Source: a virus. Taken from it: a stretch of 32,299 nucleotides of DNA. The stretch is taken from positions 1-32,299 of IMG/VR virus record IMGVR_UViG_3300046733_000148, one strand, 5' to 3'. The notes beneath the pieces are model-generated. The model did no database searches. It was not told the DNA's origin and was given only the letters and a program-made list of their open reading frames with translations. A program made the translations under genes and the position numbers. Below, piece by piece: positions 21,663-32,299 of the stretch (its first letter is position 1; each line of letters begins with the position of its first letter).

Positions 21663-21816
21663 CTGTTTTCTCCCACAACTCTACGAACTCGCAGTAAATG
21701 TCTTGCTGTAAGACTGCCTCTTCGTAGTCACCCTGCCCTGCTATCCCGAATGCAAACAGGACTAGCACTATCCCTATTATCAGAACCGCATACGCGTCCG
21801 TTGATAAGTCCCTCAT
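21601..21816 (-). CDS. small single-span membrane protein, unknown
   Basis: A 71-residue protein with a hydrophobic helix at residues ~9-27 (AYAVLIIGIVLVLFAFGIAG) followed by a hydrophilic, mostly acidic tail with two cysteines (QQDIYCEFVELWEKTDG, then DETCVAE). An RBS (AGGGATATTT) precedes the ATG, inside the C-terminal codons of the sigma-region-4-like gene. It predicts an inner-membrane protein with the tail on the periplasmic or cytoplasmic side undetermined. It could take part in superinfection exclusion or host membrane takeover, but nothing in the sequence proves this. Confidence 0.6.
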   Translation of the reverse strand: MRDLSTDAYAVLIIGIVLVLFAFGIAGQGDYEEAVLQQDIYCEFVELWEKTDGQDGHPDFRGVYDETCVAE

Positions 21817-21952
21817 AAATATCCCTCACTTTACTATTGTTGCGCAACTTATTTAAAGCCGCTTCCTCGATTTGTCTTACACGCTGACGGCTGATGCCAA
21901 GCTCTGCGGCTATCTCAGCGTAGGTCATCTTCTCTACGAATTTGCTGTCCAC
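21728..21952 (-). CDS. sigma-70 region 4-like HTH protein
   Basis: A 74-residue protein with GTG start (GGGGG 4 bases upstream). Its first half is nearly a free-standing sigma-70 region 4.2: MTYAEIAAELGISRQ and GISRQRVRQIEEAALNKLR, the HTH that reads -35 boxes, lacking regions 1-3. The remainder (residues ~38-74) is polar and may be poorly folded. Phage proteins with only this module can act as transcription activators or as partners that alter sigma choice. Its location, next-but-two from the early/late boundary, makes it a candidate controller of the late promoter. It could instead be a simple DNA-binding repressor of the same fold. Confidence 0.7.
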   Translation of the reverse strand: MDSKFVEKMTYAEIAAELGISRQRVRQIEEAALNKLRNNSKVRDIYEGLINGRVCGSDNRDSASPVCIRDSRAG

Positions 21953-21999: not shown

Positions 22000-22206
22000 C
22001 TAATATGGGCCGCTTGAGTATTCGTACCAAGTGCCACGCTTGCCAAGCCATAGGCTGTACTTGAAACCGCAATCAGTTTCAATTCGCACGTGAGTCCGAC
22101 GCTCCTCATACATTGAGCTTACGGGCCAGACTGCCTTGTGACCTCCAGTTGCAATTTCTTTAGCAATGGCGCGTTCTTGCGATGGCGTTAAGTGAACTTC
22201 TGTCAT
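22000..22206 (-). CDS. unknown 68-residue protein with its own duplicated leader
   Basis: The product reads MTEVHLTPSQERAIAKEIAT, then RRTHVRIETDCGFKYSLWLG and TWYEYSSGPY. The N-terminus is a helix, the rest looks like a small beta sheet rich in aromatic residues. I do not recognise the family. What stands out is its 5' region: promoter, hairpin and RBS (GAAGGGAGA) nearly identical to those of the plus-strand gene at 28109, so both are probably made at the same time and strongly. Confidence 0.6.
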   Translation of the reverse strand: MTEVHLTPSQERAIAKEIATGGHKAVWPVSSMYEERRTHVRIETDCGFKYSLWLGKRGTWYEYSSGPY

Positions 22207-22211
22207 GTCTG

Positions 22212-24934: not shown

Positions 24935-25425
24935 TTTGCCCCCTTTGCAAGCTGTAGCAATTGGTCGATAGGTATTAGCCTAGATTGAGCAAGCGCATAG
25001 GTCGGCTTGTAGCCTTCTTTAAGTACCTTTAAATTTTCGGGTTGCCTTATGACATTTACGTGCGCTACGCCGCCACACCGCCAGACATCACGCTCACCAC
25101 ACATAAGGACGTAAAGATCGCAGAGCTTGCGCTTGTCTGTTTCTAAAAGCAGGCGACCGTTAGGTTGCTTAGTAGCCTTAACGTCTATCTGATAGCCCAT
25201 CCATTCGCAATCAGCCACCTGCGGCGTATCACTAAAGTCTGGTCGAACTCCGATCAGCTTGCAGAAAGCCATCTCTGCGGCCATACCATTTGTTTCAACT
25301 TCGTACTGGCTATCGGTCTTAGACATCTTGCGATTTACAGCACCAATTTTTCGGGACGCTCTGTAGCGTCTTATCCCTACCTCGCAGGCTATTTCATATT
25401 CTCGCGCAGTCAGCTCAATCATCAT
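24913..25425 (-). CDS. PD-(D/E)XK-type nuclease-like protein
   Basis: A 170-residue protein with TNGMAAEMAFCKLIGVRPDF (E51), then DCEWMGYQIDVKATKQPNG (D81-x-K83) and LYVLMCGERD. Helix with E, a strand IDVK and a following strand make up the core of the restriction-endonuclease fold. Small phage proteins of this kind are often resolvases or DNA-processing nucleases. It overlaps the gene upstream by an ATGA junction and the NinB-like gene downstream by 22 bases. The specific substrate is unknown. Confidence 0.65.
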   Translation of the reverse strand: MMIELTAREYEIACEVGIRRYRASRKIGAVNRKMSKTDSQYEVETNGMAAEMAFCKLIGVRPDFSDTPQVADCEWMGYQIDVKATKQPNGRLLLETDKRKLCDLYVLMCGERDVWRCGGVAHVNVIRQPENLKVLKEGYKPTYALAQSRLIPIDQLLQLAKGAKCLANSG

Positions 25426-25796
25426 TGCGTCACCCTCTGCCCATCAAAGGTCACATATTGCCCATAGCGTTGCAGGCATGACTGTCTAAAGGCTTCGCTT
25501 TGCATGAAGTCGTGAGTCAGATCATCTAACTGAGTCCATTTCTTCATCGGTATTTTACCTGTCTGCTCCTGCTCCTGTTGAGCAAATGGGCTACCGCCTT
25601 TCTGATTCGCGCGTGAAAGCCAGCTTTGGCAAAAACGCGGCATTCCTTTTACAGTCTTGATGCGACTAGGGTTAGCCTCTAACCAAGTCGCCATTACATT
25701 TAGTTCGGCAAATACGTCTACTTCATGGAATGCGTGTTGCCAGCTTAATAGTTGCTCATCTGTTGGTTGCCAGTCTTCGCCGCTTTTCGTAATCAT
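25422..25796 (-). CDS. replication-associated small protein (DnaT/primase C-terminal-like)
   Basis: A 124-residue protein, start at 25796 after a very strong RBS (AAGGAGAAGGGA). It contains LSWQHAFHEVDVFAELNVMA, then WLEANPSRIKTVKGMPRFCQ and SWLSRANQKGG. 'E...M..WL..NP..KT.KGM.RF...WLSRA' is the helical domain found at the C-terminus of phage replication initiators and DnaT-like proteins, used for binding ssDNA or the helicase. Here it is free-standing; no initiator, helicase or polymerase is found in the window, so the phage probably recruits the host replisome. Confidence 0.55.
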   Translation of the reverse strand: MITKSGEDWQPTDEQLLSWQHAFHEVDVFAELNVMATWLEANPSRIKTVKGMPRFCQSWLSRANQKGGSPFAQQEQEQTGKIPMKKWTQLDDLTHDFMQSEAFRQSCLQRYGQYVTFDGQRVTQ

Positions 25797-26068
25797 TCCC
25801 TTCTCCTTTTTTTTAGACAATAGGGGTCATTAGAGGACGACTGTTGCCCTATACAAGTATCTAGCTAATCCATCATCCCTACAGTATCAGTGCAGATCAT
25901 TAACGGCTCTGTCATCACCGCGCCCTTACTACATGGCAACTTAACCACTGTTCGTCCCCGTCCTCAAAGGTCGTAGGAATGATTCGGCTTTTGTGAGCGA
26001 CTGCACCTGAGACAGCACTATTTGACTAGGCTCGACTAGGCGTGATTAAAAAGAGGATAGGTGATAGG
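25797..26068. other. non-coding gap upstream of the small RNA
   Basis: The 392-base interval between the replication-associated gene and the HTH gene is the largest without a convincing protein gene. The left part (25820-26068) holds a direct repeat T(T/C)GACTAGGC at 26022-26031 and 26032-26041, a GATAGGT duplication near 26057-26070 and no clear terminator or coding frame; the right part holds the small RNA. It might be the replication origin or a long 5' leader of the minus-strand gene, but I see no iteron or AT-rich unwinding region in it. Confidence 0.4.
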
Positions 26069-26109
26069 TATACAGACAGCTAGATTGCTGTATAATTTTC
26101 CCTATCCTC
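26053..26109. repeat. 9-bp inverted repeat flanking the small RNA promoter
   Basis: GAGGATAGG (26053-26061) and CCTATCCTC (26101-26109) are perfect inverted copies 48 bases apart, one just upstream of the -35 and the other at the predicted start site. That arrangement would suit a repressor that bridges both sites. The HTH protein encoded next door is one candidate binder. Confidence 0.6.
26069..26096 (+). promoter_or_regulatory. promoter of the small RNA, TATACA-N16-TATAAT
   Basis: On the plus strand TATACA (26069-26074) and a perfect TATAAT (26091-26096) are spaced by 16 bases, in the same form as the late promoter on the other strand. The predicted start is near 26103. No protein gene lies downstream before the terminator. 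Confidence 0.7.
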
Positions 26110-26190
26110 AATGCACGCAAGCTAAGGATGCCACGAGCGTAACCCTTCCGCAAGTGGTCTGGCCCCGTCTCAACAACGGGGCTTTTTTTT
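26103..26190 (+). ncRNA. candidate structured small RNA, about 88 nt
   Basis: Between a good promoter and an intrinsic terminator there are about 88 bases, antisense in direction to all neighbours. They fold by eye into three stems: ATCCT/AGGAT (26104-26108 with 26125-26129), CCAC-GA-GCG / CGC-AA-GTGG (26131-26139 with 26149-26157) with a symmetric purine internal loop, and the terminator stem. No plausible protein (no ORF with RBS) and no tRNA cloverleaf is present. Role unknown: a regulator of early mRNAs, of host mRNAs, or of replication (as in RNA-controlled origins) are options. Confidence 0.6.
26162..26190 (+). terminator. intrinsic terminator of the small RNA
   Basis: On the plus strand a 7-bp stem GCCCCGT/ACGGGGC (26162-26168 with 26176-26182), loop CTCAACA, is followed by eight T (26183-26190). 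The last T residues overlap the stop codon of the convergent HTH gene. On the minus strand no T tract follows, so it acts in one direction. Confidence 0.93.
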
Positions 26191-26398
26191 ACCTCCCCAA
26201 TCTCTCAAACTCTTCTAGCGATAAATCAAGCCGCTCCGCTAGTCTGACAACAAGGCTAAACTTCATGTCGTCCTTATGCCTCCAGCGACAGATAGCAACC
26301 TTGTTTACGCCAAACTCTTTTGCCAACTGGTCATTACTCACACCTGCTAACGCCTGTGCTTTCTTGAGTGCGCGACCCGTACTAGAACGGTAGGTCAT
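26189..26398 (-). CDS. XRE/Cro-type helix-turn-helix protein
   Basis: A 69-residue protein, start at 26398 with GGAG 7 bases upstream, inside the end of the SSB-like gene. Its helices AQALAGVSNDQLAKEFGVNK and VAICRWRHKDDMKFSLVVRL and ERLDLSLEEFERL make a Cro/C1-type HTH, with the recognition helix around VNKVAICRWR. It has no oligomerisation or self-cleavage domain, so it is not a classical prophage repressor. It may control the small RNA promoter or the early operon. Confidence 0.75.
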   Translation of the reverse strand: MTYRSSTGRALKKAQALAGVSNDQLAKEFGVNKVAICRWRHKDDMKFSLVVRLAERLDLSLEEFERLGR

Positions 26399-26672
26399 CT
26401 TCAAACTCCTCACTAGGCTTCGCGGCTTGACGGGCGTTTGCTATGCCTTGCTTTGCCACTTCACTTTGGTCAGGCGTCCACGTGTCGAGCTTGGTGTACA
26501 GCTTGTCGCTCGCCTTAGCCTTTAGCACTTCCATGTTGACCCAATCACCTGCCTGATTGTTGAGAAACGGAATAAGCTCCGACTTCTTAACCGCCAGCTT
26601 GACTATCGCGTAGTCAGGTGCGTTAGCGTTTCGCTTGGCTATTAAGCCATCTACAAATTTAATATCAGCCAT
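26382..26672 (-). CDS. single-stranded DNA-binding protein-like
   Basis: A 96-residue protein with the acidic end EEFEDDLPF, which resembles the DDDIPF-type tail of SSB proteins that docks recombination and replication partners. The body (MADIKFVDGLIAKRNANAPD, AIVKLAVKKSELIPFLN, WVNMEVLKAKASDKLYTKL) is beta-rich and could be a short OB-like fold, but it is not a clear E. coli SSB homologue. The start lies in the end of the preceding gene, with RBS AAGGAG. Sits between the annealing candidate and the HTH gene, as expected for a recombination operon. Confidence 0.65.
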   Translation of the reverse strand: MADIKFVDGLIAKRNANAPDYAIVKLAVKKSELIPFLNNQAGDWVNMEVLKAKASDKLYTKLDTWTPDQSEVAKQGIANARQAAKPSEEFEDDLPF

Positions 26673-27262: not shown

Positions 27263-27526
27263 TTATTCTCCTCTTATTGATGGGAAGTCAGGCATCGGAA
27301 ATTTCTCCTCAAATGCCTCAGTTGCGACGTGCGAGGCATCGCGCATCTGTGTTAGTGCGTACCCATCGGCATAGCCTGACAGGTACATATCGGTGGCGGG
27401 GTAGCGTTGGCAGTTACAGCGCAAGCCATCCTCAAAGCCGTGACGGAAATCACGACTAGCAACCTTGAGAAAGTCCTTGAACCGCTCTTCAAGGAAGTCG
27501 TCATCTGACTTAGTAAAGTCCAGCAT
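27263..27526 (-). CDS. unknown 87-residue early protein
   Basis: It starts after a strong RBS (AGGAGGCGCTCA) and overlaps the preceding gene by 17 bases. The product reads LDFTKSDDDFLEERFKDFLK, then DGLRCNCQRYPATDMYLSGY and ADGYALTQMRD. 'YLSGYADGYAL' is a recurring short motif in small unknown phage proteins. Function unknown. Confidence 0.55.
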   Translation of the reverse strand: MLDFTKSDDDFLEERFKDFLKVASRDFRHGFEDGLRCNCQRYPATDMYLSGYADGYALTQMRDASHVATEAFEEKFPMPDFPSIRGE

Positions 27527-27914
27527 TGAGCGCCTCCTTATACGCGGTTATGTCACAGCGATAGCTCATCTGTCGCTGATAGGCTTCTTCTTCGAGTAGC
27601 AGGTGTTCATGTATTGCGAACTTGGCATAGTTCCAGTGCATGGCCTGTGTCTGCAAAGTCCATGCGTCATGAGTGCGGTTGTTCGAAAACATATTCATAA
27701 ACCACTCTGCCGCGTCACGTCGCCATGACTGACCGCTAGACTTGTGTTTGCCTTCGTCGTCACAGTTACAGCAGATAGCCTCTGAGACTAGCTCGTCGTG
27801 ACCGTTTAGGATTGCCCACGCCAACAGCTCACCGCGCATCTCGCCAGTGATGTTGTCGATGTTTTCTTGCCAGTTGTGATGATCTACTGACAGTTTCCAG
27901 ATATCAATTTGCAT
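27510..27914 (-). CDS. unknown 134-residue protein, first gene of the early operon
   Basis: The start at 27914 is set by GAAGGGAGA 6 bases upstream, the same RBS as in the two leader modules; a longer frame from 27941 would start inside the operator-like palindrome. The product is rich in Trp, His and Cys: MQIDIWKLSVDHHNWQEN, AICCNCDDEGKHKSSGQSW, DAAEWFMNMFSNNRTHD, AKFAIHEHLLLEEEAYQRQ. CCNC with later His could bind a metal, unproven. As first early gene it may act on the host, but I do not recognise it. Confidence 0.6.
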   Translation of the reverse strand: MQIDIWKLSVDHHNWQENIDNITGEMRGELLAWAILNGHDELVSEAICCNCDDEGKHKSSGQSWRRDAAEWFMNMFSNNRTHDAWTLQTQAMHWNYAKFAIHEHLLLEEEAYQRQMSYRCDITAYKEALNAGLY

Positions 27915-27932
27915 TGCTTTTCTCCCTTCAGC

Positions 27933-27980
27933 GTTCCACATGGAACACCTACATTATGCACGATAAAGGGCAACACGCAA
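27933..27980 (-). promoter_or_regulatory. early leftward promoter with parS-like palindrome at the start site
   Basis: On the minus strand: -35 TTGCGT (27980-27975), 16-base spacer, -10 CATAAT (27958-27953). The palindrome GTTCCACATGGAAC (27933-27946 on the plus strand) begins at the predicted start point. It equals the core of chromosomal parS (GTTCCACGTGGAAC) except for one central base. It could be an operator, a 5' hairpin, or a real ParB site. Confidence 0.65.
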
Positions 27981-31558: not shown

Positions 31559-32299
31559 TTAGATTGCCGCTATGATGAATGCAAGTAGTTCAGAGTAACG
31601 AACACCTAATCGTGTACGCTCTACAGATCCTTCAGGGGCTTCCTCAGCAGTATCATGAGTATGCACTACTGTACGCTCTTCTTGCGCTTCTACAGCCTCT
31701 TCAACGACGTTACCTTCCTCGTCTACTACAGCCTCTTGAGCCTCTACTGCGGGGATAACCTCTGTAGATTCCCACCATGTAGAGCTGATGAACATAGCGT
31801 AGCGTCCAGCGTCTAAGCCTTCAGCAGTAAAAGCGTCCTGTAAGTCTTGAGCAATGATGCCGAAGTGGATACGTGCGTCGTCGCCTTTGGCTTCTACAGC
31901 GGACTTCCAGCGAAACTTGCGTAGTAAGCCTTTAGCCGCTACAGCTACACGTTGCTCTGCGTCAGACAATGTTTCAATGTCTTGCTTCTCATTGCGGTCA
32001 GAGGTTTGAATGGTGCCGTTAGTGGCGTAAACGTCATTGAAGCGGAAACTTCCTGTTCCAATATCATATGCGTTATCAGTAAGAGTCCCGCTACCATTAA
32101 CTGGAAGAACAGCAGTATTGCCCATAAGCAACCCAGCAGAACCACCTTTAATGTCAATAACTCCGTAGCCAGTACCAATACTACCGACTGTTGTGCCGTC
32201 TTTGCGGAAGTTAGCAATTTCACCGTCTGATGCTAGTCTGTTTAACTCTAAAGCGGCAGAGCCATCAGAAGCCACTGCCACATAATTGTTATTTCTTAG
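31559..32299 (-). CDS. tail fibre with S74 chaperone, 5' part beyond the window (allele B)
   Basis: The frame stays open to the right edge and ends, like copy A, in the S74 domain (TSDRNEKQDIETLSDAEQRV, GIIAQDLQDAF, GVRYSELLAFI). Up to TTVGSIG it matches copy A; then a ~45-residue segment (GTGYGVIDIKGGSAGLLMGN... in place of SRTGNLFTTYTSNGYGLTG) is unrelated, and the remainder is again very similar with scattered changes. If the contig is circular, this C-terminus joins the N-terminal two thirds seen at 870-2060. It is best seen as the second allele of the same gene. Confidence 0.85.
   Translation of the reverse strand, partial: LRNNNYVAVASDGSAALELNRLASDGEIANFRKDGTTVGSIGTGYGVIDIKGGSAGLLMGNTAVLPVNGSGTLTDNAYDIGTGSFRFNDVYATNGTIQTSDRNEKQDIETLSDAEQRVAVAAKGLLRKFRWKSAVEAKGDDARIHFGIIAQDLQDAFTAEGLDAGRYAMFISSTWWESTEVIPAVEAQEAVVDEEGNVVEEAVEAQEERTVVHTHDTAEEAPEGSVERTRLGVRYSELLAFIIAAI
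32173..32299. repeat. right-end repeat, exact copy of 743-869
   Basis: The last 127 bases of the window repeat an interior segment of the S74 fibre gene. See the left copy for the length argument. Confidence 0.85.

Follow-up and report, generated by a model that had tools for sequence, protein, structure and literature searches.

A predicted small RNA opposite a probable pseudoknotted leader RNA, between a CII-like gene and a possible replication gene of an uncultured phage

Most of what is known about the regulatory RNAs of phages comes from a small number of temperate model phages. The OOP RNA of lambda overlaps cII by about 55 nt and has CTGT-N8-ACAG as the LexA box of its promoter, while among plasmids RNA I/RNA II of ColE1 and Inc RNA/repZ of IncB/IncI each form a two-RNA architecture. 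The OOP promoter lies near the origin and opposes the early operon, and its RNA is antisense to cII (PMC3985674; reviewed in PMC12197685). In sX13, C-rich loops act on G-rich start-site motifs (PMC3771888).

The phage described here is uncultured and known solely from metagenomes. An OOP-type layout is present in the window, which is the whole 32,299 nt stretch of DNA that was analysed and is itself a virus record, and in its relatives, although the gene assignments behind this comparison are weak (a CII-like PHROG match with an E value of 0.002 and a replication match in some relatives).

The small RNA gene and its neighbours

A small RNA (sRNA) of approximately 89 nt is predicted on the plus strand at 26102-26190, its fold being kept in relatives and its 5' end placed from the promoter TATACA-N16-TATAAT (26069-26096; hexamers at 26069-26074 and 26091-26096). 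It would form hairpin 1 (26104-26129), hairpin 2 (26130-26158), and a terminator hairpin followed by eight T (26161-26190). The loop of hairpin 2, CCCUUCC (26143-26149), stays C-rich while the stems change and is the proposed seed against ribosome-binding sites. The promoter, a stem CCAC-GA-GCG/CGC-AA-GTGG, and an intrinsic terminator with eight T had been named in an earlier, sequence-only reading of this DNA and are present in the sequence as claimed. By count alone such patterns are ordinary, with 16 promoter-like sites versus 14.3 +/- 3.5 in shuffles and 14 terminator-like sites versus 10.7 +/- 3.4, both at chance level, and the case for the sRNA therefore rests on its relatives.

There are 46 relatives of the neighbouring helix-turn-helix (HTH) gene in IMG/VR, and the plus-strand element is found at all 46 of these loci (46/46); in pattern scans the core of the sRNA is present in 62 IMG/VR contigs. 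The candidate gene proposed in the sequence-only reading is thus confirmed by conservation. Relatives with broken and uncompensated stems were looked for, and instead the three-hairpin fold and terminator are kept in 41 distinct sRNAs, some with wholly different stem sequences. The terminator stem occurs as GGCCCCG/CGGGGC, GGGCCAC/GTGGCCC, GGGCCAG/CTGGCCC, and other variants, with pairing retained, and the divergent loci L228-L233 have nearly no stem sequence in common with the window while retaining the three-hairpin plan. In addition to CCCUUCC, the hairpin 2 loop is found as UCCCUUCUC (L141), UUCCCUU (L228-L230), UCCCC (L231), and CCCUCC (L233). By comparative standards the predicted sRNA gene is real, and would be transcribed from the promoter described here; it stands up to the comparative tests usually required of such genes, and it does so in 62 uncultured viral contigs.

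The promoter is enclosed by a palindrome, TATACAG-N12-CTGTATA, which covaries as TGTACAG/CTGTACA and has the counterpart ATACACA...TGTGTATAAT in the L228 group. The palindrome arms do not include the AAT of the -10 hexamer, which shows no variation in alignment A1; part of the family has TACAAT in place of TATAAT. In L231 and L233 the promoter is different and less clear, with a -10-like TAAACT and a palindrome that is not obvious. No LexA box was found at the sRNA promoter, where the palindrome TACAG-N12-CTGTA has the inverse arrangement.

The sequence-only reading had the sRNA facing away from its neighbours, which is incorrect, as it points at the 3' end of the right-hand HTH gene (26189-26413, minus strand). 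This gene encodes a CI/CII-like regulator (Pfam Phage_CI_repr, 2.5e-5; PHROG CII-like, 0.002), and the sRNA terminator adjoins its stop codon, the T-run overlapping it by 2 nt. The statement that there is no open reading frame needs amendment, since a chance plus-strand frame of 110 aa (26061-26393) crosses the sRNA; coding is nonetheless unlikely because single-base indels separate the relatives across this region.

In L231 and L233 the terminator adjoins HTH genes whose sequences differ. In L003, L007, L014-L016, L018, L027, L028, L031, and others, the HTH gene and the terminator are separated by differing sequences, apparently small genes, and because of these differing insertions the junction looks like a site of gene exchange. 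Divergent relatives keep the order ERF-like gene, SSB-like gene, HTH gene, element, small variable genes, possible replication gene, NinB, and exonuclease, with the possible replication gene no more than about 1.5 kb downstream of the element; the names ERF-like and SSB-like are our presumption, neither protein having a family match.

To the left of the gap is the possible replication gene (25422-25796, minus strand). The window's own copy of its protein has no Pfam or PHROG match, while PHROG 1032, 'replication initiation protein', is matched by 4/17 members of the family, with a best E value of 3e-4. A PDB search by sequence and a search by fold with a structural model (mean pLDDT 88, pTM 0.57) both gave no match. 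We had presumed this protein to be DnaT, an identity supported neither by Pfam, the PDB sequence search, nor the fold search, and the 'replication initiation' match of the relatives is weak.

Elsewhere on the minus strand, the CDS at 21728-21952 encodes a small protein that carries a sigma-70 region 4 domain (Pfam E 3.5e-13) with the rest of the sigma factor absent, and is possibly a phage transcription regulator. For the frame at 27510-27941, an internal ATG near 27915 is the likely true start, with GAAGGGAGAAAAGC ahead of it; no comparable ribosome-binding site was seen before the start of the longer frame at 27941. Near each end of the record (120-2060 and 31559-32281) there is a copy of the C-terminal part of a tail-fibre-like gene, the two being nearly identical in encoded protein; they are either paralogues or an artefact of assembly at the record ends.

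The structured leader on the minus strand

The sRNA is part of a larger conserved element than had been supposed from the sequence alone, as conservation spans the whole gap at 25797-26190. This 392-nt gap is the best-conserved part of the locus, with a mean identity to the window of approximately 89%, compared to 58-86% nearly throughout the aligned neighbouring genes; a few bins farther right, where one to seven loci are aligned, have 88-90% identity. Within the gap, covariation and wobble asymmetry indicate a structured, pseudoknotted leader RNA at 25817-26118 on the minus strand, read leftward to the gene at 25422-25796. The interpretation given in the earlier reading is partly supported, and it missed this opposite-strand leader, to which the sRNA is antisense.

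Helix a is predicted to pair its 3' arm (25830-25839) with its 5' arm (25959-25968), with the arm pairs TTAGAGGACG/CGTCCTC, TTAGAGGCGG/CCGCCTCTAA, TTAGAGGGC/GCCCTCTAA, and TTTAGAGGAC/GTCCTCTAAA among relatives (2/300 permutations). Nested with it is helix h, in which GTTGCC (25935-25940, 5' arm) pairs with GGCAAC (25843-25848, 3' arm), these becoming GGTGAC and GTCACC, respectively, in four relatives. Helix b (5' arm 25973-25982, 3' arm 25873-25882) crosses both, which makes the structure a pseudoknot. There are 28 distinct arm pairs for helix b, with a mean duplex energy of -13.9 kcal/mol versus -10.4 kcal/mol for permuted arms (0/300). In L032, the sequence within helix a is wholly different, yet helix b is rebuilt as CCAACAAC/GTTGTTGG. 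In alignment A2 (49 sequences), 93.9% of cells in helices a, b, and h are paired versus 89.2% when shuffled, and there are 46 double changes versus 8.0; 0/500 shuffles, which ignore kinship, match the observed pairing or double changes. When the partners are slid by one to three columns, pairing falls to 37-53%.

A long hairpin, c/d (26040-26118), surrounds the palindrome of the sRNA promoter, its arms being found as GCGTAC/GTACGC, GCACTC/GAGTGC, GCACAC/GTGTGC, and GCATAC/GTATGC. Support is weaker for helix i (3' arm 25888-25892 with 25946-25950; CAGTG/CACTG changing to CAGCG/CGCTG) and for hairpin j (25903-25921; CGG/CCG, UCG/CGA, or AGG/CCU by class). Helices f and g are plausible, but covariation support for them is absent.

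Two further observations concern this region. In L032, L125, and L127 the sequence within helix a is unlike that of most relatives while the helix and its flanks are kept, which resembles a domain swap. At approximately 26013-26041 there is a near-invariant block, GACAGCACTATTTGACTAGGCTCGACTAGGC, containing the direct repeat GACTAGGC-TC-GACTAGGC and kept in 62/62 contigs; a pairing partner with covariation support was sought for this block and none was found.

Since a G.U wobble on one strand corresponds to mismatched A.C on its complement, such pairs can indicate which strand carries the structure. Among the distinct arm pairs of helix b, 16 wobbles are valid on the minus strand versus 2 on the plus strand (p = 0.001, kinship ignored). 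Those of helices a and h, taken from the same alignment, leave the strand undecided at 29 versus 19 cells, in part because window-type rows are out of register at these helices. Eight variants of helix c (26040-26045 with 26113-26118) form a duplex that is better by approximately 3-5 kcal/mol on the minus strand, with a slight lean to plus in the window and L004. From the helix b wobbles and the helix c energies, the minus strand is the most likely carrier of the pseudoknotted RNA, which would run leftward from the HTH gene into the gene at 25422-25796; the sRNA would then be antisense to its 5' part and directed against the early operon.

It was also considered whether the whole gap might be a single plus-strand RNA, or a DNA cruciform alone. 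The former is rejected because of the wobbles in helices b and c, which point to the minus strand, and because a conserved plus-strand promoter was not seen at the left edge of the gap. The latter is not compatible with the interleaving of helices a and h with b, which is impossible for a simple cruciform, nor with the asymmetry of the wobbles.

The conserved part of the leader stops a few bases short of the ribosome-binding site of the next gene, and the gene directly after the leader varies between phage groups, which together make the leader look like an independent module rather than a riboswitch bound to one gene. The predicted structures of the sRNA and of the leader RNA are well supported by these comparisons, from which we infer their expression and function.

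Loops and ribosome-binding sites

The gene at 25422-25796 has the ribosome-binding site GGAGAAGGG (25798-25806, minus strand), within which GAAGGG is complementary to the CCCUUC of the sRNA loop. In the window this match is found at 25798-25803, near 27920, and near 22210, ahead of genes whose starts are at 25796, near 27915, and at 22206, respectively, with the base beside the six-pair core mismatched. In L228-L230 the loops AUUCCCUU face AAGGGAAU ahead of the same gene, and in L229 and L230 the AAGGGAAU site stays with its gene despite another gene having been inserted before it. In L231 it is the terminator loop, UCCCUCC, that matches GGAGGGA at four start sites. As judged by sequence, there are C-rich apical loops to which G-rich motifs at start sites are complementary.

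Loops with U-CCC occur together with GGG-A sites and those with A-CCC mostly with GGG-U (Fisher p = 3e-5, distinct elements, kinship ignored), and an element's pairing with its own ribosome-binding site is better than permuted pairing (0/200). In class A phages the density of start sites with GAAGGG is 2.98 per 10 kb and that of start sites with GGAGGG is 0.65, while in class C phages (loop CCCUCC) the corresponding figures are 0.52 and 3.66, the loop classes representing only a few independent events. Within the window the loop has no overall start-site preference (162/200 shuffled loops are as good or better), and the G-rich motifs near starts are in part plain Shine-Dalgarno sequences. In some relatives the pairing is broken, through a GAAAAG ribosome-binding site in L021/L022 and a CGCUUC loop in L026.

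The fact that the C-rich loops match and covary with the ribosome-binding sites of early genes makes regulation of early mRNAs the best supported of the three roles suggested in the sequence-only reading. The other two, priming of replication and titration of a host factor, are without direct support, although the sRNA does have a possible replication gene next to it.

Possible function and comparison with described systems

On balance it is probable that this is an antisense RNA, placed like OOP, that represses early translation through anti-Shine-Dalgarno loops. With a promoter and a terminator of its own, the sRNA would be transcribed counter to the early operon and stop at the 3' end of the HTH gene, while the minus-strand leader would be a pseudoknotted stretch of the early-operon transcript directly ahead of the next gene. 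The C-rich hairpin loops may pair with G-rich Shine-Dalgarno sequences ahead of early genes of the same phage, here the GAAGGG of the three genes named above, and such pairing would lower their translation. The sRNA is also fully complementary to the leader's 5' portion, and should block the folding of that portion when paired with it. The module as a whole may restrain early or replication genes while genome copies rise. The structures, strands, and synteny of the two RNAs and the matching of loops and ribosome-binding sites are supported by comparison between relatives; transcription, pairing in vivo, and the direction and timing of the effect we infer.

Alternatively, control might be in cis, as by OOP in lambda, through collision of polymerases and cleavage of the duplex by RNase III, acting on the HTH message and on read-through into the replication genes, with the loops unused in trans. 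The layout resembles that of lambda, in which pO is near the origin, against pR, and OOP is antisense to cII (PMC3985674), and the terminator is beside a CI/CII-like gene here and beside differing HTH genes in L231 and L233. However, the overlap is a mere 2 nt and in many relatives another gene intervenes, and a pure cis duplex explains neither the persistence of C-rich loops amid changing stems nor the tracking of distant ribosome-binding sites by those loops, making this explanation unlikely. If only the minus-strand leader matters, hairpin d would resemble a plus-strand promoter by accident and the terminator would do no more than stop stray transcription. The promoter hexamers are indeed in the arms of a hairpin that covaries for structural reasons, in a region where promoter-like sites are at chance frequency, but the invariant AAT is outside these arms, a -10-like TAAACT is retained in L231/L233 where the palindrome is not obvious, and all relatives have the plus-strand terminator and C-rich loop, even where the sequence has been replaced; this is considered improbable.

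Copy number control of the plasmid type, on the model of ColE1 RNA II or IncB/IncI repZ, would make the leader a pre-primer or translational pseudoknot and the sRNA the equivalent of RNA I or Inc RNA. Here too a pseudoknotted RNA next to a possible replication gene is faced, over its 5' part, by an antisense RNA, and no DNA polymerase, helicase, or primase was noticed in an unsystematic look at the frames of the window, which makes host-driven replication plausible. Yet the gene directly after the leader varies among relatives, unlike repZ, and a plasmid collection contained no match, so that such control is decidedly improbable here. Titration of a host RNA-binding protein, or mimicry of a host sRNA, with no pairing to phage messages, could account for C-rich loops, which recur in host sRNAs such as sX13 (PMC3771888). 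It would not, though, require loop variants to track the variants of phage ribosome-binding sites, and is highly improbable.

Repression of early translation by anti-Shine-Dalgarno loops would explain, in a testable way, how such a phage keeps its early genes in check, and if the co-change of loops and ribosome-binding sites is real it would be a rare case in which the phage targets of an sRNA are legible from evolution. It is possible, although short of probable, that the whole represents a new class of control module in phages, in which a pseudoknotted leader of approximately 300 nt contains a promoter for an anti-Shine-Dalgarno antisense RNA encoded on the other strand. Together the two would time early expression, or start and limit replication of the genome, in a lineage absent from the named phages searched.

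A limited literature search found no published description of such a two-RNA module. With Rfam 15 at the gathering threshold, on both strands, there were 0 matches in the window, L032, L229, L231, and L233, so that the large covarying pseudoknotted RNA opposite the sRNA matched no family; at E values up to 10 there were only sub-threshold, mostly terminator-like matches. The sX13 family (RF02232) scored 13.4 bits against a threshold of 50. No tRNA or tmRNA was found, and named phages and plasmids gave chance terminators and nothing beyond these. The 37 pattern matches in bacterial genomes were, judging by their flanks, chance occurrences in other contexts, and neither these nor three whole genomes, in themselves uninformative, indicated a host.

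Like OOP, the sRNA is short and antisense, lies between a CII-like gene and a possible replication gene, has a promoter that opposes the early operon, and has its terminator at the 3' end of the regulator gene. Unlike OOP, its overlap with the HTH gene is 2 nt here, another gene lies between the two in many relatives, and its C-rich loops match ribosome-binding sites; to our knowledge, lambda has no comparable pseudoknotted leader. In its three stems and in the C-rich loops that face G-rich ribosome-binding sites, it is similar to sX13 of Xanthomonas, RNAIII, and LhrC, whereas it is phage-encoded, antisense to an operon leader, and C-rich in only some of its loops. An antisense RNA opposite the 5' part of an RNA that is pseudoknotted, by sequence comparison, is shared with ColE1 and Inc RNA/repZ, from which this locus differs in being in a phage, in its variable gene after the leader, and in having no plasmid match. 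As a long, conserved, structured RNA in a phage intergenic region, the leader recalls GOLLD, HEARO, ROOL, and other large Rfam RNAs. The sRNA is not a member of the OOP, sX13, or RNA I/Inc RNA systems; its closest analogues are OOP, in its position, and sX13, in its loops.
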